Shown here: piece by piece, positions 1,867 to 27,380 of the stretch
Layout: the number at the start of each line of letters is the position of its first letter
How positions within the stretch are numbered: position 1 is the stretch's first letter
Source: Clostridia bacterium
GTDB lineage: Bacteria > Bacillota > Clostridia > Oscillospirales > CAG-272
Direction of reading: 5' to 3'
Assembly: GCA_017412675.1 (NCBI GenBank)
Contig: JAFPWV010000067.1
Span: 1 to 32,647 of the forward strand
Length of the DNA stretch: 32,647 bases
Translations under genes and position numbers: made by a program
Notes under the pieces: generated by a model
Database searches by the model: none
Seen by the model: only the letters and a program-made list of their open reading frames with translations
What the model was told of the DNA's origin: nothing

Positions 1867-2438
1867 ACCGCATCGCCCGCCTTTCTGCGCCGCAGAACAT
1901 ACAGACCGCGCGCCGCACCGAGGAATGCCGCGCCGAGCACGATCCATGCCGGGGAGAGACCCATGCCGAGGATGAGCGCGAGGGAGACGGCAAAGATGAC
2001 GGCGCGGGGCAGGGTGTTCTTTGCGAGCGAGCCCTTCGTGAGCGTGAGGGCGGTATCGAGAATGACCGCCGCGACGCCCGCCCGCATCCCGGCCATGATC
2101 TTCATGATGAGGGGAAAGTCCGCGCTCCGGCGATAGGCCTCGGCGAGGAGGCACATGGCGCAGAGCGGCGGGATCACCGTTCCGGCGAGGGAGACCAGCG
2201 CGCCGCCGATCCCCGCGAGACGATATCCGACGAGGAGGGAGGCGTTGACCGCGACGGCGCCGGGTGCGCTCTGTGCCGCGGCGGAGAGATCGAGCATCTC
2301 GTCCTCGGAGATCCACCCGAGCTTTTCCACATACAGGCGGCGGAGCACCGAAAGGATCACATAGCCCCCGCCGACGGTGGTTGCGGAGATCAGGAGGGAG
2401 CGGAGGAACAGGGTGAGGAGCGGACGGCGTGCGGTCAT
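1863..2438 (-). CDS. Chromate transporter family protein, first half
   Basis: A 191-residue membrane protein of the short-chain CHR family. It shows the same layout as its downstream partner: Gly-Gly-Gly-Tyr near residue 23, then Ala-Pro-Gly-Ala-Val-Ala-Val-Asn near residue 58, in place of the usual Thr-Pro-Gly-Pro-Ile-Ala. It ends in a basic tail after the last helix. The ATG at 2438 has a GGGAGG ribosome binding site six bases upstream. A strong promoter lies at 2474-2502 and a palindrome at 2525-2540. The two halves together correspond to one full-length ChrA-type transporter. Chromate export has not been shown for most clostridial pairs, so the substrate is left open. Confidence 0.85.
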   Translation of the reverse strand: MTARRPLLTLFLRSLLISATTVGGGYVILSVLRRLYVEKLGWISEDEMLDLSAAAQSAPGAVAVNASLLVGYRLAGIGGALVSLAGTVIPPLCAMCLLAEAYRRSADFPLIMKIMAGMRAGVAAVILDTALTLTKGSLAKNTLPRAVIFAVSLALILGMGLSPAWIVLGAAFLGAARGLYVLRRRKAGDAV

Positions 2439-2473
2439 GGGATGCCTCCCGGCAGGATTTCTGATTTGTCTCT

Positions 2474-2502
2474 ATTATACACCCTGCACGCGGATATGTA
2501 AA
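2474..2502 (-). promoter_or_regulatory. Promoter of the chromate transporter pair
   Basis: On the minus strand TTTACA (2502-2497) and a perfect TATAAT (2479-2474) are separated by exactly 17 bp. The predicted start is about 30 bases before the ATG at 2438. Confidence 0.8.
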
Positions 2503-2524
2503 ATGATATGATTTAATCAGAACA

Positions 2525-2540
2525 ATAAGTAAATACTTAT
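2525..2540. promoter_or_regulatory. AT-rich palindrome upstream of the chromate transporter promoter
   Basis: ATAAGTA (2525-2531) and TACTTAT (2534-2540) form a perfect 7-bp inverted repeat with a 2-base centre, in a GC-rich surrounding. It lies about 22 bp upstream of the -35 element, a position suited to a dimeric activator. No regulator gene is adjacent. The rest of 2541-2619 holds nothing I can recognise. Confidence 0.4.
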
Positions 2541-2619
2541 TATATGCAAAGCAGTGTGCGCATCCCGATCATTTCAGCCGGCACTTCACAGAATTGCATT
2601 TCTCACGGCGATCTCACGG

Positions 2620-2666
2620 AAAAAACAACGACCGGGCAGCACATTTCGTGTTGTCCGGTTCGTTTT
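2620..2666 (-). terminator. Terminator after the 238-aa protein gene
   Basis: A 14-bp stem (2629-2642 with 2648-2662, one bulge and two G-U pairs) has a 5-base loop. On the minus strand it is followed by six T (2625-2620). There are also four T on the plus side. It ends the minus-strand gene at 2727. Confidence 0.75.
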
Positions 2667-2726
2667 GACGGGTATTGTTGATGGATCCGACAGGTCTTTA
2701 TGCGAATTCCGGGGAATGCCCGCCGG

Positions 2727-3443
2727 TCACGCGGATTCCTTCAGGAGCGCGATCACCGCGTCCATCAGCCGATCCTTCAGCGCGGCGGGAAGCTCCGTGC
2801 CGACTGCGGCAGCCGTCGGTCCCGCGCCTGTTTGGACCGTCATATCGCCGAGCGTTGCGACCAGGCCGATCTTGCCGAGAGCGCCGGAGAGGGCGGAGAG
2901 GATCTTCGGCTTCACCCGGTCCGAGGAGAGAAGGGTGATCCCCTGCTTCTCGAGGGTTTCGGGACTGGCCTTCGTTACCATCTGCAGCGCGAACTTTGCC
3001 GCGCCCTTGAGCAGGCTGTTCTCACCGCCCAGCTGCCCGAGGGCGGATTCCACGACGGGGCTGGAGGAGAGGGCGGCGTAGTCCGTCTCGACCTGCGAGG
3101 CGACCAGAACCATCCGGGTGCTGGGACGGTCCTCCGCATGCAGCGGGCCGACCTTCATGACGGACTTCCCGAACAGCGAATCCAACTGCTGGTTGACCGC
3201 GGCGACGATCTGTTCCTGACGGCTCTCGGCCATCCAGACGACGAGGCCGTCCTTCAGATCGTCGTTCATGTACTTTAGCAGCTTCTTTGCCACGGGGACC
3301 GCGTCCTTGCCCAGCCGCGCGACGAACGCTTCCAATCCGTTCGGCGACTTCTTTTCTTCGGCCTCCTTCACAAGCTGGGGAAGGAGATTCTCGATGCTCT
3401 TCTGATAATCGATCCGTTCGATCTGAAGGGTAATGTTGATCAT
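2727..3443 (-). CDS. Uncharacterised 238-residue soluble protein
   Basis: I do not recognise this protein. It has no signal peptide or membrane segment and appears mostly helical. Residues 12-75 are rich in Lys, Glu and Leu, as in a helical bundle. Around residues 105-125 it shows a Val-Leu-Val-Ala-Ser-Gln-Val stretch, and the C-terminal part (about 195-238) is Ala/Gly-rich and ends in an amphipathic helix. The ATG at 3443 has an AGGAG ribosome binding site and follows a good extended -10 promoter; a terminator lies 60 bases beyond the stop. It is therefore a genuine single-gene unit of unknown function, probably cytoplasmic. Confidence 0.65.
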   Translation of the reverse strand: MINITLQIERIDYQKSIENLLPQLVKEAEEKKSPNGLEAFVARLGKDAVPVAKKLLKYMNDDLKDGLVVWMAESRQEQIVAAVNQQLDSLFGKSVMKVGPLHAEDRPSTRMVLVASQVETDYAALSSSPVVESALGQLGGENSLLKGAAKFALQMVTKASPETLEKQGITLLSSDRVKPKILSALSGALGKIGLVATLGDMTVQTGAGPTAAAVGTELPAALKDRLMDAVIALLKESA

Positions 3444-3502
3444 AAACTCCTCTTTCCGGCGGAAGAGTCCGGAGACCTGTTCCGCCTGTTTGTTCCGTCT
3501 TC

Positions 3503-3531
3503 AGTATAGCATATTTCCGGGCAATGCGCAA
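3503..3531 (-). promoter_or_regulatory. Promoter of the 238-aa protein gene
   Basis: On the minus strand TATACT (3508-3503) is preceded by TGC (extended -10). A weak -35, TTGCGC (3531-3526), lies exactly 17 bp upstream. Confidence 0.6.
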
Positions 3532-3557
3532 GAGAGAACTTGTCTGGCGCAGCTTTT

Positions 3558-5480
3558 TCATGCAGAGCCGCCATTTCGGACAGGCCGGTCGACCCATCCG
3601 TTGACGCGGGAGAAGGTCTCGAGCAGGGATTTGCCTCCCCGGCGCACGATCGAGCCGTTCACCACGGCGCAGCGATCCCCCTGTGCGGCGAGGATCTCCG
3701 CGTCCGTGAACCAGCCGTCCATCACGTTGATGCAGTTGCGGTGGATGATCTTGCCGTCCGCGCGGTGGTTGACATAGACCGTCGTGCCGCCCGCGGTGAT
3801 CTTCCAGCCGTCGGTGATCGGCGTCAGGACGGGCTCGATGCGCTCGTCGAGCGGGATGATGCCGCAGAATTTCGCGTGGTGCTGTTCGTCCGTATCCGTC
3901 GTATAGACATCGTAGTCCGCCGTCTTCGTGTCGCCTCCGATCCATCCGGTCCGGGTTTCGGCATCGGCGGGGGAGAGCATCCGGAACGGATTTCCCGCGA
4001 GGCCGTGCATGAGGAAGCTCACCCGCCCGGCTTCGTAGCACTCGACGTCATCGTAGATCAGAATGAAGCCGTCCATCCAGAGGAAATGGCGGTGATGCTT
4101 GCGGAAATACCGTCCCATCGGCCCCGTGCCGTCCGCCGCGAGATACCGGAATCCGTCGTCATCGATGAAGTTCCGGAGCTTTCCGGGAAGGTGGGTGTTG
4201 TTTTTGTAATTGTCACGGAAATCCTGCCCGTGTCCGTTGAAGAGAAGGACGTTGTGGGCATCCGACGTCACGTAATAGCGCTGGTAGAGGGGATCGGAAT
4301 AACTGTTCGTCGTGAGCGGATCATAGATCTCCGGCTTCCCGTTCCGGTAGAGGAGGAACGAGGCGCAGTCGGCGTGGGCGTGGTTCCAGGTGTCCCCGCA
4401 TTTGACGGCGAGCATGACGGAATCCTTCTCCCAGCTTTCGTGGAAGACTGCCCAGCCGATGTTCGGATAACAGGCGGCGCGCTTTTCCGGCGGCACGGGA
4501 TCCGGGGCCTCGATCTTGTCCCAGAGGAGCGCCGAGAGCAGCGGATCGCAGTTCTTGCGGTTTCTGTTCCGGAGGAAATACCTGAGGCCGGGGACGTCGA
4601 TGCCGTAGCGGAGGAAGTACAGGGGAGAGTTGAAATCCCCGTCCTCGTTCCCATAATCCCCGAACCCGACAAAATAGTCCTTGCGGCCATTCGAGGGGTA
4701 CCAGCAGGAGAGGAAGAACGAGATCGCGGCGCGGAGAAGATCCCCGTCGTCGAAGGGGTGCTCCCCGGTGAGGCGTTCGTGGACGATGGCGAAGGTCAGG
4801 TATTCCCGCAGGGCATAATCGAAATACCCGACGGATTCGTAGTACCCGCCGCCGTCGAAGGTCATGGGCTTGGCGTTCATCGGATTGCCGGGATAGCGGA
4901 ACCACGCTTCGAGGGCTTCCGTCGCCTGCTTCAGAAGGGAGTCTCCGTCCGGGATGAGATCGCGGAAGACGACGGCTCCGAGCGCGGCGGCGGAAATGCA
5001 GACGCACCAGAAGTTGTGCCCCATCGTGTCGAGGGCGTGGATGCGCGTTCCGGGCAGGACCCAGTCGCTGAGCAGATCGCGGATCCCTTTCTCGTACGTC
5101 CCGCGGATGATGAGATCCCGGTCCTCTTCGGAGAGCAGGTTGCCGAACAGGGCAAAGCCGAGGGACGCCGTCACACAGCGGGAGGCGGTCGGAAGGGAGG
5201 TGCGGATGTCGAAGCCGTGATAGGCGTCCGGATCATAACCGGAATCGATCCAGCTCTCCTCCCAGACGAGGTCGAGCAGGATGCGGCGCGCGCAGTCGAC
5301 GTAACGCCGGTCCCCGGTGCAGGCGTACGCGAAGCCGAGGAGCCTCATGTCGCAGCTTCCCCGGTCCGCGCCGCGTTCGGCATCCGCAAGCAGCCCGCCG
5401 ACGAGGGTACGCAGGCCGGGATCGGCCGTCGTTTTCAGCCGCTCGATCTCTTCTTCGGTGAATAAAGCGCTCGGTTTCAT
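3558..5480 (-). CDS. Heparinase II/III-like polysaccharide lyase-type protein
   Basis: A 640-residue protein with the two-part architecture of heparinase II/III-like polysaccharide lyases. An N-terminal alpha/alpha-toroid region (about 1-330) carries Gly-His-Asn-Phe-Trp at 154-158, whose Asn156 matches the catalytic-region Asn, and a Gly-Gly-Tyr-Tyr-Glu segment near 210. A C-terminal beta-sheet region (about 340-640) contains Trp-Asn-His-Ala-His-Ala-Asp at 365-371, the heparinase II/III metal/substrate motif. Such enzymes cleave uronic-acid polysaccharides by beta-elimination. There is no signal peptide, so it should act in the cytoplasm on imported oligosaccharides. Its ATG overlaps the stop of the GNAT gene (ATGA), making it the last gene of a three-gene operon. 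The exact substrate cannot be read from sequence. Confidence 0.8.
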   Translation of the reverse strand: MKPSALFTEEEIERLKTTADPGLRTLVGGLLADAERGADRGSCDMRLLGFAYACTGDRRYVDCARRILLDLVWEESWIDSGYDPDAYHGFDIRTSLPTASRCVTASLGFALFGNLLSEEDRDLIIRGTYEKGIRDLLSDWVLPGTRIHALDTMGHNFWCVCISAAALGAVVFRDLIPDGDSLLKQATEALEAWFRYPGNPMNAKPMTFDGGGYYESVGYFDYALREYLTFAIVHERLTGEHPFDDGDLLRAAISFFLSCWYPSNGRKDYFVGFGDYGNEDGDFNSPLYFLRYGIDVPGLRYFLRNRNRKNCDPLLSALLWDKIEAPDPVPPEKRAACYPNIGWAVFHESWEKDSVMLAVKCGDTWNHAHADCASFLLYRNGKPEIYDPLTTNSYSDPLYQRYYVTSDAHNVLLFNGHGQDFRDNYKNNTHLPGKLRNFIDDDGFRYLAADGTGPMGRYFRKHHRHFLWMDGFILIYDDVECYEAGRVSFLMHGLAGNPFRMLSPADAETRTGWIGGDTKTADYDVYTTDTDEQHHAKFCGIIPLDERIEPVLTPITDGWKITAGGTTVYVNHRADGKIIHRNCINVMDGWFTDAEILAAQGDRCAVVNGSIVRRGGKSLLETFSRVNGWVDRPVRNGGSA

Positions 5481-6103
5481 CCGTTGCTCCCCGCTTCCTC
5501 CGGATCTTCGATGAACCCCGCGGGCGTGACGATCCCGTAGGGGGTTGCATCTTCATGAACGACGCGGAGACGGTCGATCCCATAGGTCTCGAGCACCTTC
5601 TTCCACCGCTCGAGCATCCCTTCCGCGTATTCCACGGCGACGAATCCGGCACTCAGGTAGGATTTCAGCGCGGCGGGACGTCCCTCGCTCGTCGTCAGGG
5701 ATACATAGGGAACGCCTCTCGCGCGCAGCGTTTTCTGGATGTGATGAGAGAGATACTTCGCCAGCCCCTGTCCGCGGTACGCTTCCTTGATCCCCACCCA
5801 ATGCATGTCGCCGAATCCGGCCGGCTGATGGACGAAGGAGGTCGCGGTCCCGATGTGCTTGTCCCCATGATCGAGGAACCAGACGTCTTCCTCGGGGCGG
5901 ATATCCTTAAAGTCGTAGATCTCCTGCTTGAACCGTCCCTCGTCCGTCTCCTCCGAAGAGGTCCAGGTGCGGATGCATTCGTTCCAGTCGTGAACGTCGC
6001 GCGCGTGGGTCTTCTCGGAAAAACGGGAGAAGGAATAGCCCGCCGGAAGCGTCAGATCGGGGAGCGGATCGTCGGTGAACCAGTACATTTTGAGCTGTGA
6101 CAT
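5477..6103 (-). CDS. GNAT family N-acetyltransferase
   Basis: A 208-residue GNAT-fold acetyltransferase. The acetyl-CoA binding motif Arg-Gly-Gln-Gly-Leu-Ala sits near residue 116, preceded by a beta-strand Met-His-Trp-Val-Gly-Ile. It is followed by the typical Ala-Leu-Lys-Ser-Tyr-Leu-Ser-Ala-Gly-Phe helix. The N-terminal 60 residues are Asp/Glu/Trp-rich and not a known domain. The chosen ATG at 6103 has a perfect AAGGAGG six bases upstream; an in-frame reading 11 codons longer lacks one. It lies between a GH28-like gene (10 bp upstream) and the heparinase-like gene (4-bp overlap). It could acetylate an amino sugar or a small molecule from the same pathway, but the substrate is unknown. Confidence 0.8.
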   Translation of the reverse strand: MSQLKMYWFTDDPLPDLTLPAGYSFSRFSEKTHARDVHDWNECIRTWTSSEETDEGRFKQEIYDFKDIRPEEDVWFLDHGDKHIGTATSFVHQPAGFGDMHWVGIKEAYRGQGLAKYLSHHIQKTLRARGVPYVSLTTSEGRPAALKSYLSAGFVAVEYAEGMLERWKKVLETYGIDRLRVVHEDATPYGIVTPAGFIEDPEEAGSNG

Positions 6104-6113
6104 GGAAGCCTCC

Positions 6114-7631
6114 TTATCGCCTGAACAGGCTGTCATGGTATCGATAGATGATTTTGCCGCGATCGAAGATCACATCCCGGTATCCGAACGCCGACGGCAC
6201 GCCGCTGAACTGCACTTCCCGGATGGCCGAGACGCCGTGGGCTTCGCTCTCGAGGCCGATGTGGTAATTGCCGCTCACGGGGACCTCGAAGCGCAGCTGG
6301 ACTTCTTCCCAGTCGGAGCATCTGACCGGTGCCTCGGCGATGAGGGCGCCCGTGTCGAGATCGCGCACGAAGAGGTTCCCGCCGCTCTCCGTCCGGGCTT
6401 CCGCGCGGAAGAGGAGCTGCCGTCCCGCCTCCATCCAGAGCCCCTGATAGATCGCCGAACGGCTCCCCCGCGGATCGATCCGGCCGTACGGCTTATCTCC
6501 ATCTTCCGGATGCCGCTCGACGCCCGCGTTCCCCGTCATCGCCCAGAAGCACCGGCCCTGCTCGAAGTTCCCGTTATGAAGGACCGGACTGCTGCGGAAA
6601 CCGTTCATGTCGCTGATCTGCGTCTCGAAGAAATTCGCCTCGATCCCGTCGATCGTGTTGTTCTCGAAGCGCACCGTCGTGACTGGCGGCGGCCAGCCCT
6701 TGTCGCAGTAGGGATTGTACAGCCAGACCCCCATCGTTTCGAAATGGTTGTCGTGGACGTAGAGATCCCGCACCTCGATCTTTTCTGGATCCGGGCAGCC
6801 GATGCCCCAGAGGATCATGCCGAACGCCTTGCAATGGTTGGAGCGGAGGTCGTTGTGGTCGATTTCGATGTTCAGGGAGGGCTGCGGATCGTCGCTCGAC
6901 CACCATTCGCTCTTCCGCGGATCCCGGTAGGAGGAAAAGAGATAGACGGAATCGTCCCCCGTCATCATGGTGCAGCCGGTGACGCGCATGTTCTGGCAGT
7001 TCATCATGCAGATCCCGTCGCCGTTGCCGTGGGAACTCCCGTCGATCCGGACGTTTTGGATCAGGCCGTCGGTCGAGGAAAACGGCATCATGGCGTAGCT
7101 GTGGTAGTTCGTGATATGGATGTCCGCGATCTCGAAGCGATGGCAGTCGAAGAAGCCGATCGGGCAGATCTTGAGGATCTTTTCGGGATCCGTCACCTCC
7201 ATCATGCGGACGCAGCCGGGACCTCGGACGGCGAAATCGTGCGTGCCGCGCTCCGCGCAGAGGAGGGGATAGTTGCGGTACCACCAGTGGCTCCATTTGA
7301 TCTCGGCGGAGTAGTTGTGCCCGGGCATGGGCCGATACGGCTCGTAACCGCCCGGGACGGGTCTGACGTAGTCGCGGGGATCGGGGCTCTGGCAAAGCTC
7401 CGCGCCTTCTTCAAACAAAAGCTCCGTGTGGTTCCGCAGCACGAGCGTTCCCGTGAGGAACCGGCGTCCGGCAGTCAGCACCACGGTACCGCCGCCGAGC
7501 GACGCGGCATGATCGATCGCGTTCTGGATGGCGGCGCGATCGCAGACCACTCCGTCCCCGACGGCGGAAAAGGGCGGGTCGGTGACGCGGATCCGATGCG
7601 CTCCGATGCAGATGTTCCGATTGTCCTCCAT
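6114..7631 (-). CDS. GH28-like right-handed beta-helix protein
   Basis: A 505-residue protein of the polygalacturonase (GH28)/pectate-lyase-fold group. It starts with the family's Asp-Gly...Ala-Ile-Gln-Asn-Ala-Ile pattern (about 26-40) and has Asn-Gly-Asp-Gly at 203-206 and Gly-Asp-Asp at 225-227, matching the GH28 NTDG and GDD acid motifs. The later Gly-His-Gly and Arg-Ile-Lys motifs of true polygalacturonases are not evident. After the helix (to about 360) comes a beta-sandwich resembling a carbohydrate-binding module (about 365-480). No signal peptide is present. The ATG at 7631 has GAGGAGG five bases upstream; the GTG two codons earlier overlaps that site. It is first in an operon with a GNAT and a heparinase-like gene, driven by a perfect-consensus promoter. 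Confidence 0.8.
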   Translation of the reverse strand: MEDNRNICIGAHRIRVTDPPFSAVGDGVVCDRAAIQNAIDHAASLGGGTVVLTAGRRFLTGTLVLRNHTELLFEEGAELCQSPDPRDYVRPVPGGYEPYRPMPGHNYSAEIKWSHWWYRNYPLLCAERGTHDFAVRGPGCVRMMEVTDPEKILKICPIGFFDCHRFEIADIHITNYHSYAMMPFSSTDGLIQNVRIDGSSHGNGDGICMMNCQNMRVTGCTMMTGDDSVYLFSSYRDPRKSEWWSSDDPQPSLNIEIDHNDLRSNHCKAFGMILWGIGCPDPEKIEVRDLYVHDNHFETMGVWLYNPYCDKGWPPPVTTVRFENNTIDGIEANFFETQISDMNGFRSSPVLHNGNFEQGRCFWAMTGNAGVERHPEDGDKPYGRIDPRGSRSAIYQGLWMEAGRQLLFRAEARTESGGNLFVRDLDTGALIAEAPVRCSDWEEVQLRFEVPVSGNYHIGLESEAHGVSAIREVQFSGVPSAFGYRDVIFDRGKIIYRYHDSLFRR

Positions 7632-23661: not shown

Positions 23662-23688
23662 ATCCCTATTTTACTCATGGAGGAAAAC

Positions 23689-25797
23689 ATGAAGAAAGTA
23701 CTTTCTCTCGTCCTTTCCGCAATGCTCCTTCTCACGCTCGCTTCCGTGGTTCTGGCTGACAGCAACCTCGACTGCGAGACCCCGTGGGTCGACATTGAGG
23801 AACTCGCTCCGGATGCACTCGCCGATATGTTCGGTGACTCGTATCCTTATTCGGTCGACTATGACTGGCCGGAATGCAAGGGCGATCCCGTCATCAAGGG
23901 CACGGTCATCGTCGGCGTCAAGGATGACGGCGTGACTCACTGCTGGTCCAACGGCACGGACAATGCGTCCTGCGCGTTCGACGGCGACACCATCACCTTC
24001 TATGACCCCTACGAAGCGTCCACCAAGTCCTGGTGCGGCCTCCGTCTCGATCAGCCTTATGAGCTGACGGAAGTCCGTATCTGCAACCGCTCCGGTCAGG
24101 AAGCCCGTATCATCGGCGCTGCCATCCAGGGCTCCAACGACAACGGCGCGACCTGGCACAATGTCGTTTATTTCGACAAGGAGATCTACGGCACGTCCGC
24201 CCTCCTGATGAACGACTACCACATCGTCACTCCCGAACCGAATGACGAGTACATCCAGATCTACAAGGAAAATGCGGGTCTCGACGACGACCAGGCTGAC
24301 TTCAGCCACTTCTGGGTCGGCAAGGGCTCCTACAGCATGTACCGCTACGTCAACCTCGTCGGCACGCACGGCGACTGCGCGGAAATCGAGCTCTACGGTC
24401 ATCCGGCTGATGCTTACACCGGCGAAGAAAAGGTGATCGAAGAGGCGAAGAAGAGCACCGCCGAAGAGTTCTACGGCGACCTCGAATACATCGGCACCGC
24501 GAACTACACCGCTGACGGTTCCGTTTCCGGTAAGGTCATCGGCGGCGGCGGCGCATGGTCCGATTCCGCTTCTTATCCCTGCGCATGGGACGGCGACGGC
24601 TCCACCTACTACGACCCGGCTTCCGCTGGTCCGGATTGCTTCACCGGTATCCTTGCCGATCAGGCGACCGTTCTGACCGAAGTCCGCGTGATGCCTCGTA
24701 CCGACTGGTTCACTCGTACCGCAGGGGCGGCGATCCAGGGCTCCAACGATGGTATCAACTGGACCACTCTCGCGTTCTATGACAAGGGCGACTGCCTCGC
24801 GGACGACGCCGAGCAGCAGTACATTTCCAAGACCGTTGAAGGCGCGGACGCTTACTGGATGTTCCGTTATGTCTCCATCGGCTACGAAGCCGGCACGGAC
24901 GCCGAAGGCAACGCCTATGACGCAGGCACCAGCCACGGCGACGTCGGCGACATCCTCCTCTTCGGTAAGGCCGGCGAAGCTGAGCTGAAGTACGAAGTTC
25001 CCGCTGCTCCCGCTGCCGATATGCTGAAGTGCGACGGCAACGAATATGATGAAGCTGCTGCCGCTGCGAAGGCGCTCGGCACGAAGCCCATCACGAAGTA
25101 TGAATTTGTCGAAGGCGCGGACGTTCACTTCAACAATGAAGGTCCGGAAAACCTCTGGGACGACGACGTCACCACGAAGTTCTGCACCAACGGCTTCCCG
25201 GCATGGTCCGTTGCTCAGGTGGACGGTAAGTACTCCATCAACGGCATCATCATGGCGACCGCGAACGACAACTCCTCCAACCCGGGCAGAGCTCCCGGCC
25301 TGTGGACCATCTACGGTTCCAACGACAATGCCGGCTGGGATGTCATCGCCACCGGTGACGACTCTTTCTTCACGGAAGTGTCCGGCGACGTGGACTACAC
25401 GTTCTTCGCCGCTTCCATCGAGCCCACCGCTGCGTACTCCTACTTCAAGTTCGAGTGCACCGAGACCCCGGTCAGCCTGATGCAGGTTTCCGAAGTCGTC
25501 CTCTGCTCCGCGGATGCTCCCGAAGCGGAAACCCCGGCTCCGGTCGAAGAGAAGGTTGAAGAGGTCAAGGAAGAAGTCACTGAGGCTGTTGAAGAAGTCA
25601 AGGAAGACGTCACCGAAGCCGCTGAGGCTGTCGGCGATGCCGTCTCCAACGCTGCCAATGACGCTGCGAGCGCGGTTTCCGACGCTGCCAACAACGCCGT
25701 TCAGACTGCGAAGAGCGGCTGCGGTTCCTTCATCGGCGGCGGCCTGATCGTCCTTGTGACGCTCCTCGGCTCCGCTTGGATCTCCCGCCGTAAATAA
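23689..25797 (+). CDS. Secreted protein with three discoidin-like domains and Cys-TM-Arg tail
   Basis: A 702-residue exported protein. Residues 1-23 are a signal peptide (cleavage after Val-Leu-Ala). Three F5/8 type C (discoidin)-like segments follow at about 70-240, 265-430 and 465-607; the first two share Ala-Ala-Ile-Gln-Gly-Ser-Asn-Asp and Phe/Trp-Asp-Gly-Asp motifs, and the third has Ile-Tyr-Gly-Ser-Asn-Asp. Such domains bind carbohydrate or surfaces. Residues 610-675 are a Glu/Ala/Val-rich amphipathic helix with heptad-like repeats. The C-terminus is Ser676-Gly-Cys678-Gly-Ser, a hydrophobic helix (about 681-697), then Arg-Arg-Lys. This resembles bacterial C-terminal sorting signals with an essential Cys. 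GGAGG lies five bases before the ATG at 23689, so the in-frame ATG 12 bases earlier is excluded. A strong promoter and even codon usage indicate high expression. Confidence 0.85.
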   Translation: MKKVLSLVLSAMLLLTLASVVLADSNLDCETPWVDIEELAPDALADMFGDSYPYSVDYDWPECKGDPVIKGTVIVGVKDDGVTHCWSNGTDNASCAFDGDTITFYDPYEASTKSWCGLRLDQPYELTEVRICNRSGQEARIIGAAIQGSNDNGATWHNVVYFDKEIYGTSALLMNDYHIVTPEPNDEYIQIYKENAGLDDDQADFSHFWVGKGSYSMYRYVNLVGTHGDCAEIELYGHPADAYTGEEKVIEEAKKSTAEEFYGDLEYIGTANYTADGSVSGKVIGGGGAWSDSASYPCAWDGDGSTYYDPASAGPDCFTGILADQATVLTEVRVMPRTDWFTRTAGAAIQGSNDGINWTTLAFYDKGDCLADDAEQQYISKTVEGADAYWMFRYVSIGYEAGTDAEGNAYDAGTSHGDVGDILLFGKAGEAELKYEVPAAPAADMLKCDGNEYDEAAAAAKALGTKPITKYEFVEGADVHFNNEGPENLWDDDVTTKFCTNGFPAWSVAQVDGKYSINGIIMATANDNSSNPGRAPGLWTIYGSNDNAGWDVIATGDDSFFTEVSGDVDYTFFAASIEPTAAYSYFKFECTETPVSLMQVSEVVLCSADAPEAETPAPVEEKVEEVKEEVTEAVEEVKEDVTEAAEAVGDAVSNAANDAASAVSDAANNAVQTAKSGCGSFIGGGLIVLVTLLGSAWISRRK

Positions 25798-25818
25798 GCG
25801 CTGAAACAATCCATTCGT

Positions 25819-25858
25819 GGGAAGCCTTCCAACCGGGGGGCTTCCCCGAATCTTTTTT
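25819..25858 (+). terminator. Terminator-like hairpin between the surface protein and lgt-like genes
   Basis: GGGAAGCC (25819-25826) pairs with GGCTTCCC (25839-25846). Six T follow at 25853-25858 but only after a 6-base gap, which suggests incomplete termination and read-through into the genes that follow. Confidence 0.6.
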
Positions 25859-25861
25859 GCC

Positions 25862-26629
25862 ATGTATCCATACGAACTTTTCTTCGGCATCACCCTCTAC
25901 GAGGTCCTGATCGTCGTCGGGTATATCGCGGCGATCGCCCTCTTCCGCCGATATTCCGTCAAGACCGGCATGTCCGCGAAGCTCTATAACCTCGCGCTCG
26001 TCTCCGTCACGGCGGGAGCGGTAGGCGGGTATCTCTCCGGCTATCTTTTTCAGGCGCTCTACGACTGGCTCGGCGGCGGAGGCTTTCATTTGAATAGATC
26101 GACCGGCTCGACCTACCTCGGCGGGCTGATCGGCGCCCTCGCGATCATCGCGGTCGTCTACTTCGTCGGCGGCGCACTCGTCTTCCGGGATTCCCGCGAA
26201 CACCTCGAACATTTTGCCGACGTCATGGACGGATATGCCGCCGGGATCGCGCTCGGCCACGGCTTCGGACGCATTGGATGCCTCATGGCGGGCTGCTGTT
26301 ACGGTCTTCCTTCGGAGCACGGGATCTATTTCCCGGAGCTTGGCTTCCGGGCCATCCCGACGCAGCTCTTCGAGGCGGTCTTCCTCTTCCTCCTCGCCGC
26401 GTTTCTCTGGCGCCTCGTCACGCGTACCAGCGGATACGGCGCGCCCGTCTATTTCATCGCGTACGGCGTCTGGCGGTTCTTCCTCGAATTCTGGCGCGGA
26501 GACGACCGCGGCAAAACGGTGGTCGATTTTCTCACGCCGTCCCAGCTCGTGTCCGTGCTCCTCGTCGCCGTGGGGCTCGTCCTTCTGTTCGTGAAGCGGA
26601 GAAAGGAGCGTCGCCATGACGAAACGTGA
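25862..26629 (+). CDS. Lgt-family (prolipoprotein diacylglyceryl transferase) paralog
   Basis: A 255-residue polytopic membrane protein with about seven helices and the Lgt signature region His133-Gly-Phe-Gly-Arg137-Ile-Gly-Cys-Leu-Met-Ala-Gly-Cys-Cys-Tyr-Gly. Lgt moves diacylglycerol from phosphatidylglycerol to a cysteine thiol of lipoproteins. The conserved Arg137 is present, and so is a late Arg in Tyr-Gly-Val-Trp-Arg-Phe-Phe-Leu-Glu (about 206-214). The His of the canonical His-Gly-Gly-Leu element is replaced (Tyr-Leu-Gly-Gly-Leu-Ile-Gly near 85-91), and the usual Asn after Arg-Ile-Gly is Cys140. It is therefore a divergent paralog rather than a clear housekeeping Lgt. The ATG has no visible ribosome binding site and directly follows a T run. 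Its end overlaps the CPBP protease gene by 14 bases. Confidence 0.82.
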   Translation: MYPYELFFGITLYEVLIVVGYIAAIALFRRYSVKTGMSAKLYNLALVSVTAGAVGGYLSGYLFQALYDWLGGGGFHLNRSTGSTYLGGLIGALAIIAVVYFVGGALVFRDSREHLEHFADVMDGYAAGIALGHGFGRIGCLMAGCCYGLPSEHGIYFPELGFRAIPTQLFEAVFLFLLAAFLWRLVTRTSGYGAPVYFIAYGVWRFFLEFWRGDDRGKTVVDFLTPSQLVSVLLVAVGLVLLFVKRRKERRHDET

Positions 26630-27380
26630 GAAGCTCCTCTTTGCCGCGGCGTTGGCGATCCTCGTGTTCTGTGAGATCGCAGGCCGTCTCTTTCACCCGG
26701 ATGCCGTGTGGTTCCCGATGGCGGAGACGGTCCTCACCCGGCTGATCGGCGCGGCGGTCATCGTCGTCCTGATCCGGCAGACGGGCTATCGCGTCCTCGG
26801 AATCCCGGAGTTGTCCCGGCATCCCGTGATCCCGCTGCTCGCCCTCCTCGTCGCGCTCAACAACCTCCCGTGGATCGGGCTCTTCACCGGACGCGCGAAG
26901 ATCGGCGCTTCCTCCGGGATGATCCTGCTCTTCGTCTGCGAGTGCATCGCCGTCGGCCTCTTCGAGGAGCTCGCCTTCCGCGGATTCCTGATGCCGTACA
27001 GCCTCTCGCGCCTGCAGGACCGTCCCCATGCCGTCTTTCTCGCCGCCCTGTTGTCCTCGACGGTCTTCGGCCTCGTGCACCTCGTGAATCTCCTGGTCGG
27101 CGCGTCGCCGGGTGCCGTGCTCATGCAGATCGGCTATTCCTTCCTCATCGGCGGGATGTGCGCGTGCGTCCTCGTCGCCTCGCGTTCCGTGTGGCTGTGC
27201 GCCGCGATCCATGCCGTCTATAATTTCTGCGGGACCGTCGTGCTGCGCCTCGGAGAAGGGGACGGCTGGGACCCCGTCACGATCACGGTCACCGTCCTGC
27301 TCGGGCTCCTCACCGCCGTCCTCCTCGTCCGCTTCCTCTGGCGGACCGTGGATGCCGAAGATCTCCTCCCCATGAAATAA
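26616..27380 (+). CDS. CPBP family intramembrane glutamic endopeptidase
   Basis: A 254-residue polytopic membrane protein of the CPBP (CAAX protease/bacteriocin-processing, Abi) family. All family motifs are present: Glu117-Glu118-Leu-Ala-Phe-Arg122, Phe151-Gly-Leu-Val-His155, and His199-Ala-Val-Tyr-Asn203. Glu117, His155 and His199 should form the catalytic site within the membrane. About eight helices are visible. Relatives cleave near the membrane ends of substrates, including C-terminal sorting tails. AAGGAG precedes the ATG and the gene overlaps the lgt-like gene by 14 bases, so the two are co-translated. The upstream surface protein with its Cys-TM-Arg tail is the obvious candidate substrate. 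Confidence 0.9.
   Translation: MTKREKLLFAAALAILVFCEIAGRLFHPDAVWFPMAETVLTRLIGAAVIVVLIRQTGYRVLGIPELSRHPVIPLLALLVALNNLPWIGLFTGRAKIGASSGMILLFVCECIAVGLFEELAFRGFLMPYSLSRLQDRPHAVFLAALLSSTVFGLVHLVNLLVGASPGAVLMQIGYSFLIGGMCACVLVASRSVWLCAAIHAVYNFCGTVVLRLGEGDGWDPVTITVTVLLGLLTAVLLVRFLWRTVDAEDLLPMK

Follow-up and report, generated by a model that had tools for sequence, protein, structure and literature searches.

Can a bacterium lipidate a secreted protein at its C-terminal end with an enzyme kept for that purpose? The question is raised by a contig of an uncultured Clostridia bacterium (GenBank assembly GCA_017412675.1, contig JAFPWV010000067.1; Oscillospirales, CAG-272), whose 32,647 nucleotides were analysed as a whole and are hereafter called the window. 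Here, a gene for a secreted protein ending in a cysteine-containing tail precedes genes for an Lgt-family paralog and a CPBP intramembrane protease. The tail, the Lgt paralog and the protease are genetically linked across genomes. We consider it likely that they give uncultured gut Clostridia a dedicated system for C-terminal protein sorting, in which a lipid would be placed on the cysteine, the tail cut off and the protein left with a C-terminal lipid anchor. For the window protein, we infer lipidation of Cys678 and cleavage behind it.

Tailed substrate and enzyme pair in the window

The sequence-only reading had described a tailed secreted protein and, after it, genes for an Lgt-family protein and a CPBP protease that share 14 bp, all of which are present in the window (Table 1). 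The substrate open reading frame (ORF) spans 23677-25797; an in-frame ATG at 23689, with a GGAGG noted by eye a short way 5' of it, gives a protein of 702 aa. This protein opens with a signal-peptide-like segment, which is followed by three F5/8 type C stretches, a low-complexity linker and the C-terminal Cys tail, ending in AKSGCGSFIGGGLIVLVTLLGSAWISRRK. The codon of Cys678 lies at 25720-25722 and the hydrophobic helix at about 25729-25782. The Lgt ORF was listed from a GTG at 25817; since the alignment of relatives begins at MYP, its start is placed at the ATG given in Table 1.

The predicted protease scores 61.3 bits against PF02517 (cut-off 22.4). As had been claimed, it carries all catalytic motifs, namely EExxxR at 26964-26981 (EELAFR: E117, E118, R122), H155 and H199, with HxxxN at 27210-27224, and these five residues are invariant in a 15-row CPBP alignment. 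It stays below all listed NCBIfam myxosortase cut-offs (MrtJ 30.5 bits against 75, Mrt_core 20.7 against 100, MrtS 17.3 against 130, MrtP 15.2 against 250). The hairpin between substrate and enzyme genes has 12 pairs (25819-25846) followed by a T-run; the scan gave 5 sites, compared with 2.9 expected in shuffles.

Table 1. Features of the locus, in window coordinates
Feature	Coordinates	Strand	Evidence
Substrate gene, secreted protein with three F5/8 type C stretches	23689..25797	+	ORF list, Pfam, tail extraction
Sorting tail (putative), Ser-Gly-Cys678-Gly-Ser / hydrophobic helix / Arg-Arg-Lys	25714..25794	+	sequence and tail profile
Terminator-like hairpin and T-run, between substrate gene and enzyme genes	25819..25858	+	consensus scan only
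Dedicated Lgt-family paralog	25862..26629	+	PF01790, relatives' alignment, tree
CPBP (Rce1-like) intramembrane glutamic endopeptidase, predicted	26616..27380	+	PF02517, motifs, alignment

Tails follow the Lgt-CPBP pair within the genus

We sampled 25 genomes of the genus (G000-G024, G000 being the window's own genome) and found an Lgt gene with an adjoining CPBP gene in 11 of them, the own genome and ten relatives. A tail profile (A1) made of 8 rows drawn from pair loci was then searched in 40 genomes. Strong matches (E < 1e-6) occur in exactly the 11 pair genomes (G000, G002, G003, G006, G011, G012, G016, G018, G019, G022 and G024), and neither the 14 remaining genus genomes nor 15 genomes of the order gave a match below E 0.1; the own-genome match (E 3.1e-22) concerns the window tail, which is itself one of the 8 profile rows. 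The expectation that such tails track this Lgt and CPBP subfamily is therefore borne out in the genus (11/11 against 0/14 genomes). Absence of the pair in the 14 genomes was judged by Lgt alone, with genome-wide CPBP searches in G007 and G008. Lgt paralogs of pair-negative genomes score, for example, 183 bits in G021 and 94 bits in G008, while the Lgt pieces of G013, outside the pair clade, gave no match and 19.8 bits.

In two relatives (G012 and G022, loci L050/L051), the pair is found at another chromosomal place, next to what we take to be ribosomal protein L1 and L11 genes and not the window's neighbours. The gene 5' of Lgt encodes a different protein there, whose likeness to the window substrate is confined to the tail and the preceding linker.

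From 72 genus tail loci (60 further regions and 12 earlier ones, G011:C67, G006:C250 and G006:C104 being left out), a filter for Cys, helix and basic end retrieved 68 tail ORFs, 1 to 10 per genome. Nothing was retrieved by this filter in L134, L142 and L147, and the L141 tail, seen separately, was passed over. Single linkage sorted 49 substrate bodies into five groups of 36, 8, 2, 2 and 1, which makes many, though not all, of the substrates relatives of one another. One locus of the own genome (L116, G000:C175) holds two overlapping tail-bearing ORFs on one strand (2308-4815 and 1341-2369), the upstream one with a more diverged tail (GGCSSAMG..RRKKKDD).

Co-occurrence across the family

The same 196 genomes of the family were searched for Lgt, CPBP and tails. 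Lgt at 213 bits or more is present in 39 of them, five more having 171-191 bits (G324 holds a second copy at 196 bits). CPBP at E <= 1e-25 is present in 40, the same 39 plus G326, in which the CPBP gene begins 48 bases from the contig start. Tails (A5 profile, 17 rows, E <= 0.01) were detected in 54 genomes, comprising 40 of the 40 CPBP genomes and 14 of the 156 others, so that the expected tracking holds in this sample as well. At least three tail matches were obtained in 38/40 compared with 5/156 genomes, the two low-tail pair genomes being G294 (52% complete) and G342. Fisher tests give 4e-30 (at least one tail) and 1e-32 (at least three) for genomes, which are not independent, and 9e-13 for genera (14/15 against 1/56), which are not independent either. 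One member of a pair genus (G282) is without Lgt of this type, CPBP and tails altogether.

Two further tail loci were noted. In G355, four secreted proteins of 541-556 aa are encoded in tandem, each with a Gly-Cys-Gly-Ser tail (L288:1029-8228). In G285, of another genus and without the pair, a lone genus-type tail sits in a 35-aa ORF (L289:6289-6396), perhaps a contaminating contig or a gene fragment.

Gene adjacency

Where family loci have Lgt scores of 214 bits or more, CPBP lies on the same strand at -249 to +30 bp in 33 of 34 cases, distances being measured between ORFs extended to the first start codon. At the remaining locus (L262), a contig end interrupts the sequence, and the CPBP gene of the same genome starts 186 bases into another contig. 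No CPBP neighbour was seen at the six family-sample loci with Lgt of 172-197 bits. Over all loci, CPBP is a same-strand neighbour in 53/56 (51/54 once the duplicates L159/L253 and L160/L259 are taken out by hand), with two divergent arrangements and one contig break. A tail gene stands directly upstream of Lgt at 10 of the 34 family loci and also at L150, L155 and L300. Chance adjacency of Lgt and CPBP is rejected by the family co-occurrence counts together with these neighbours. Co-occurrence and adjacency also place the grouping of substrate and both enzyme genes in one locus beyond chance.

Could the three genes merely be neighbours inherited together, with no functional tie? The genomes are related and the profiles were trained on pair-bearing loci, as such a reading requires. 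The pair loci nevertheless fall into nine neighbourhood clusters (single linkage of flanking proteins, which may merge clusters, while short flanks may split them), some substrates have nothing but the tail in common, the trio recurs in another family (L300) and its presence within the genus is patchy. Shared ancestry as the sole cause is, in our view, scarcely credible.

Two observations concern the surroundings of the pair. Just downstream of it, a Cys-less tail (ATGFATVAIA..SKKRH) occurs on three tandem secreted proteins at L153:7080-10315 and on two at L241:3408-5547. At L228:11350-12015, a PEMT/ICMT-like methyltransferase gene lies about 3 kb from the pair; from this one locus, CAAX-like carboxyl methylation as a third step is conceivable.

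Wider, order and class samples

A wider scan of genome contigs with the Lgt alignment was evaluated on the best 80 of 571 loci. In 16 of these, Lgt scores 238 bits or more, and three of the 16 come from genus genomes already counted; CPBP is a same-strand neighbour in 11 of the 16, divergent in L156 and not adjoining in L152, L154, L157 and L162. Tails were searched on 33 of the best 80 (13 loci with this Lgt, 14 of the 58 with other paralogs and 6 from Bacilli) and detected at E <= 0.01 in 12/13, 0/14 and 1/6, respectively. The tracking of the pair by tails is thus seen again, although two of the 13 loci (L159 and L160) are shared with the family sample, where they stand as G336 and G396 at identical coordinates. 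CPBP of this type (E <= 1e-12) is present in 11 of the 13 genomes, for L154 and L162 elsewhere in the genome.

In the order sample (245 genomes), Lgt exceeds 200 bits in four, all from the window's family. Among the 391 genomes of the class sample, Lgt reaches 213 bits in the window's genome, G722 and G701; three others (G483, G489 and G681) have Lgt of 189-200 bits and no tails. Tail matches at E <= 0.001 were obtained in 11 class genomes: 9 in G000, 19 in G722, 1 in G701, 15 in G804, 3 in G821, 2 in G838 and one weak match in each of five more, among which the G665 match belongs to an ORF with a Cys-less C-terminus (L310). Consecutive genes for a tail protein, Lgt and CPBP are present in G722, which belongs to a different family (L300), and in G701 the pair is divergently placed (L301).

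At six Bacilli loci (L180, L181, L183, L191, L192 and L209), an Lgt-family gene overlaps a diverged CPBP gene by 11-20 bp (coordinates about 6001-7510; 1458-2955 in L192). These loci have no adjoining tail genes, and two weak A5 matches were obtained in one of the six genomes. With no matching tails beyond those two, they were not counted as members of the system.

The Lgt-CPBP pair of the system might instead serve normal N-terminal lipoproteins, in the manner of LnsA and the CPBP-like LnsB in Staphylococcus aureus, the tails being plain membrane anchors. The CPBP relative LnsB can indeed serve lipoprotein acylation (PMC7387801), and the Bacilli group has an Lgt-CPBP pair without matching tails. 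The catalytic motifs of LnsB are reportedly diverged (PMC7387801), however, whereas those of the present CPBPs are kept; moreover, tails follow the pair within one genus and tail genes adjoin it in different contexts. We hold this explanation to be very improbable.

Besides the relatedness of the genomes and the training of the tail profiles on pair-bearing loci, several observations weigh against a sorting system made of tail, Lgt and CPBP. Five family genomes (G290, G404, G410, G427 and G280) have at least three tails without the pair, and nine more have one. The first four belong to otherwise pair-bearing genera and are 63-90% complete; the genus of G280 is not pair-bearing. A looser CPBP search (1e-12) found none in these five or in G285, and PF01790 found a canonical-strength copy in each of the five, with weaker ones in G280 and G290 and none in the pair clade. 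In the wider scan, the L157 genome has this Lgt without CPBP and tails, the L152 genome has it with two weak tails and no CPBP, three of the 12 tail-positive genomes (G444, G448 and G450) have 1-2 weak matches only, and A3-like CPBP (66-176 bits) occurs without tails in four of the 14 control genomes (G464-G467). Finally, the tails of the family f40 genomes G804, G821 and G838 (with loci L308 and L309) occur without this Lgt. No CPBP lies beside the two Lgt copies of G804 or the clade-distant ones of G821 and G838, no genome-wide CPBP search being made there. One tail each of G804 and G821 was inspected and contains Gly-Cys. In family f40, this tail type therefore seems to occur independently of this Lgt, which requires the assumption of another processing route or of a pair that has diverged further.

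A distinct Lgt clade with changes at residues essential in Lgt

The window Lgt scores 102.6 bits against PF01790 (cut-off 24.9) and stays under the NCBIfam cut-offs for true Lgt (NF000778, 119 of 334 bits; TIGR00544, 65.4 of 118.9). Its genome has three PF01790 copies, at 254 bits (contig C204), 102 bits (C45, the window) and 87 bits (C238), the first of which has the canonical GRWGN motif, GRWGNFINIEAYG. In a tree of 120 rows, 58 pair-type rows form one side of a branch (SH-aLRT 95), apart from 13 canonical rows and 49 non-pair rows, of which 45 have the Cys motif. This was a quick tree (LG+G4 without mixture) that took every second locus of L164-L227 and left out L148, L149, L151, L159 and L160, whose genomes were already represented; its pair-type rows include L152, L154, L157 and L162, with no adjoining CPBP, and L262, at the contig break. 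Because the own genome has a separate canonical Lgt of 254 bits and the clade is distinct, the window gene is not the housekeeping Lgt, which disposes of the concern that it might be the only one of its genome.

A second Lgt paralog (L038:8693-9466 in G000:C238; L042:8716-9495 in G002) adjoins a protein of about 1000 aa that opens with a zinc-ribbon-like motif in both genomes. The two are possibly another paired system.

Aligned to the Escherichia coli Lgt chain (5azb/5azc; profile E 3.7e-29), the window Lgt keeps R143, G154, Y235, R239, E243, R246 and the Y26 position. Its motif, GRIGCLMAGCCYG at 26267-26305, has Cys in place of N146 and E151, as do 58/58 pair-type rows; at the H103 position the window has Leu and the other rows vary, with Tyr in 31 of the 58 (an approximate count by regular expression). 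Six Lgt residues are described as essential, Y26, H103, R143, N146, G154 and R239 (PMC13251419), and the window protein thus keeps four of them and departs at H103 and N146, which adds to the points against the proposed function. According to the same source, H103 is replaced by Y, W or F in other bacteria and N146C occurs in distant Lgt (PMC13251419). The donor or mechanism may therefore differ from that of canonical Lgt.

The sorting could be real while the Lgt-like protein works with a different lipid, or hands lipid or substrate over to the CPBP protease, the Cys otherwise being served by the housekeeping Lgt or bearing no lipid. N146 is essential in E. coli, the N146C homolog of Mycobacterium smegmatis is presumed weak (PMC13251419), and MrtX processed its substrate in E. 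coli, where no cognate partner was present (PMC11980579); the Cys substitutions and the variable H103 position point the same way. Conversely, the Lgt of Leptospira interrogans, also N146C, partly complements E. coli (PMC13251419), the residues listed above are kept in the window, and a dedicated paralog would be needless if the housekeeping Lgt sufficed. We judge such a role for the Lgt-like protein unlikely.

Anatomy of the tail

Across 103 tails (68 from the genus, 35 from wider samples), Gly at -1 and Cys are present in 103/103 and Ser at +2 in 100/103. Position +1 is Gly in 82 and Lys in 14, positions +3 and +4 are mostly hydrophobic, and 24-31 residues follow the Cys. Between -6 and +11, the range tabulated, Cys and Gly -1 are the only constant positions. 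This constancy is partly selection, because profiles and filters held the Cys and the locating rule required Gly-Cys (0/103 tails failed this rule); the contrast with the variable neighbouring positions is still informative. The tripartite tail occurs on different secreted protein bodies: among tail proteins of at least 200 aa (n=85), 71 have an N-terminal hydrophobic segment and one a lipobox-like site. Six of nine tail proteins scanned lack a Pfam match.

The window tail matched no family of NCBIfam 20.0 even at E up to 10, on which ground a described CTERM family was rejected. Three wider tails gave sub-cut-off matches only, for example CoaP_CTERM (14.7 of 35 bits), Synergist_CTERM (13.6 of 22.5) and LPXTG (13.4 of 15.9).

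A constant Cys also bears on the reading in which the CPBP protease, acting like a transpeptidase as proposed for rhombosortase, attaches the freshly exposed C-terminus to a lipid or another amine; the Lgt-like protein would then provide the lipid acceptor, and the Cys would serve recognition only. Other C-terminal sorting proteases may transfer and not hydrolyse (PMC11980579). Against this, it is the Cys, with Gly -1, that alone stays constant in the tails, within the limits of selection just given; Lgt family members act on Cys thiols, and the CAAX and myxosortase systems offer precedents. Transfer by the protease appears decidedly improbable to us.

Read from the membrane outwards, the motif, hydrophobic-Ser-Gly-Cys-Gly-Ser/Gly, would resemble a reversed lipobox, the familiar lipobox pattern being taken for comparison. 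This likeness is a possible reason why one Lgt fold could serve both signals.

Proposed pathway

As seen in the sequences, the substrate tail runs from a linker through Gly-Cys-x-Ser and a hydrophobic helix of about 20 residues to a Lys/Arg end. In the sorting system that we favour, the protein would be exported by Sec and the tail would stop in the membrane, its Cys presumably at the outer face because of the positive-inside rule. The Lgt-like enzyme of the distinct clade would transfer a lipid to the Cys thiol, in the simplest case diacylglyceryl from phosphatidylglycerol (PG). The CPBP protease would cut on the helix side of the lipidated Cys, by analogy with MrtX and Rce1, leaving a surface protein held by its C-terminal lipid. 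One pair may serve many substrates, as the 1 to 37 tail matches per pair genome of the family suggest.

In a broader version, to which we incline with less assurance, members of this Lgt clade are acyltransferases reserved for Cys-type C-terminal sorting, as part of a complete retro-lipoprotein pathway that evolved beside the N-terminal one. Such a pathway would have a backwards lipobox, an Lgt of its own and its own protease replacing LspA. The deviant Lgt paralogs of Myxococcales and the Lgt-CPBP pair of Bacilli could be further versions.

If the pathway is real, a C-terminal lipoprotein class is added to gut Clostridia, poorly annotated surface proteins acquire a role, and an Lgt fold able to work on a signal of reversed polarity is suggested.

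Comparison with known systems

Lgt-like acylation combined with CPBP cleavage of a C-terminal Cys signal is an already published hypothesis for MYXO-CTERM (PMC11980579). In Myxococcus xanthus, the myxosortase MrtX cleaves TraA, whose processing needs Cys residues; a cognate acyltransferase is reported as still to be identified, with Lgt as the leading candidate (PMC11980579). As in the present system, the substrates are secreted and have a Cys motif, a helix and an Arg-rich end, the CPBP protease has EExxxR and HxxxN, and Lgt-like lipidation is proposed (PMC11980579). Lgt-like proteins without R143/R239 are reported in Myxococcales and others (PMC13251419) and are candidates for the missing MYXO-CTERM acyltransferase. 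Our data give the lipidation idea a dedicated gene in Clostridia. Because presence, absence and gene order of the Lgt clade match those of the protease and the tails, the question of the lipidating enzyme becomes testable. Unlike in MYXO-CTERM/MrtX, a dedicated Lgt adjoins CPBP, and neither the window tail nor its CPBP matches a MYXO or Mrt model above cut-off; the hosts are Clostridia and not myxobacteria with a type II secretion step.

JDVT-CTERM/MrtJ, Synerg-CTERM/MrtS and CGP-CTERM are also Cys-containing C-terminal signals paired with CPBP proteases, for which we know of no reported Lgt partner. The best-scoring of these models, MrtJ, differs from the window CPBP, as its cut-off was not reached (see above). 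With E. coli Lgt (5azb/5azc), the window paralog shares the sequence family and the PG-binding arginines; it differs in the Cys at N146/E151, in its separate clade and in its linkage to a C-terminal and not an N-terminal signal.

In the eukaryotic CAAX pathway, a prenyltransferase acts first and Rce1 follows (PMC11980579). The proposed system would likewise lipidate a near-C-terminal Cys before a cut by an Rce1-family protease, but it would use an Lgt-type transferase at the outer membrane face in place of a cytosolic prenyltransferase. LnsA/LnsB of S. aureus likewise involves a CPBP relative in lipoprotein modification, and LnsB is for this reason the main caution to the proposed pathway (PMC7387801). 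It differs in acylating the N-terminus, in the diverged LnsB motifs and in a scheme that includes no Lgt paralog (PMC7387801).

Among literature titles and abstract openings, with subscription papers thinly covered, no Lgt dedicated to a C-terminal signal is described. The new elements are an Lgt partner that is dedicated and genetically linked, and a tail family not covered by a model; otherwise the system is of the known Cys-CTERM/CPBP kind.

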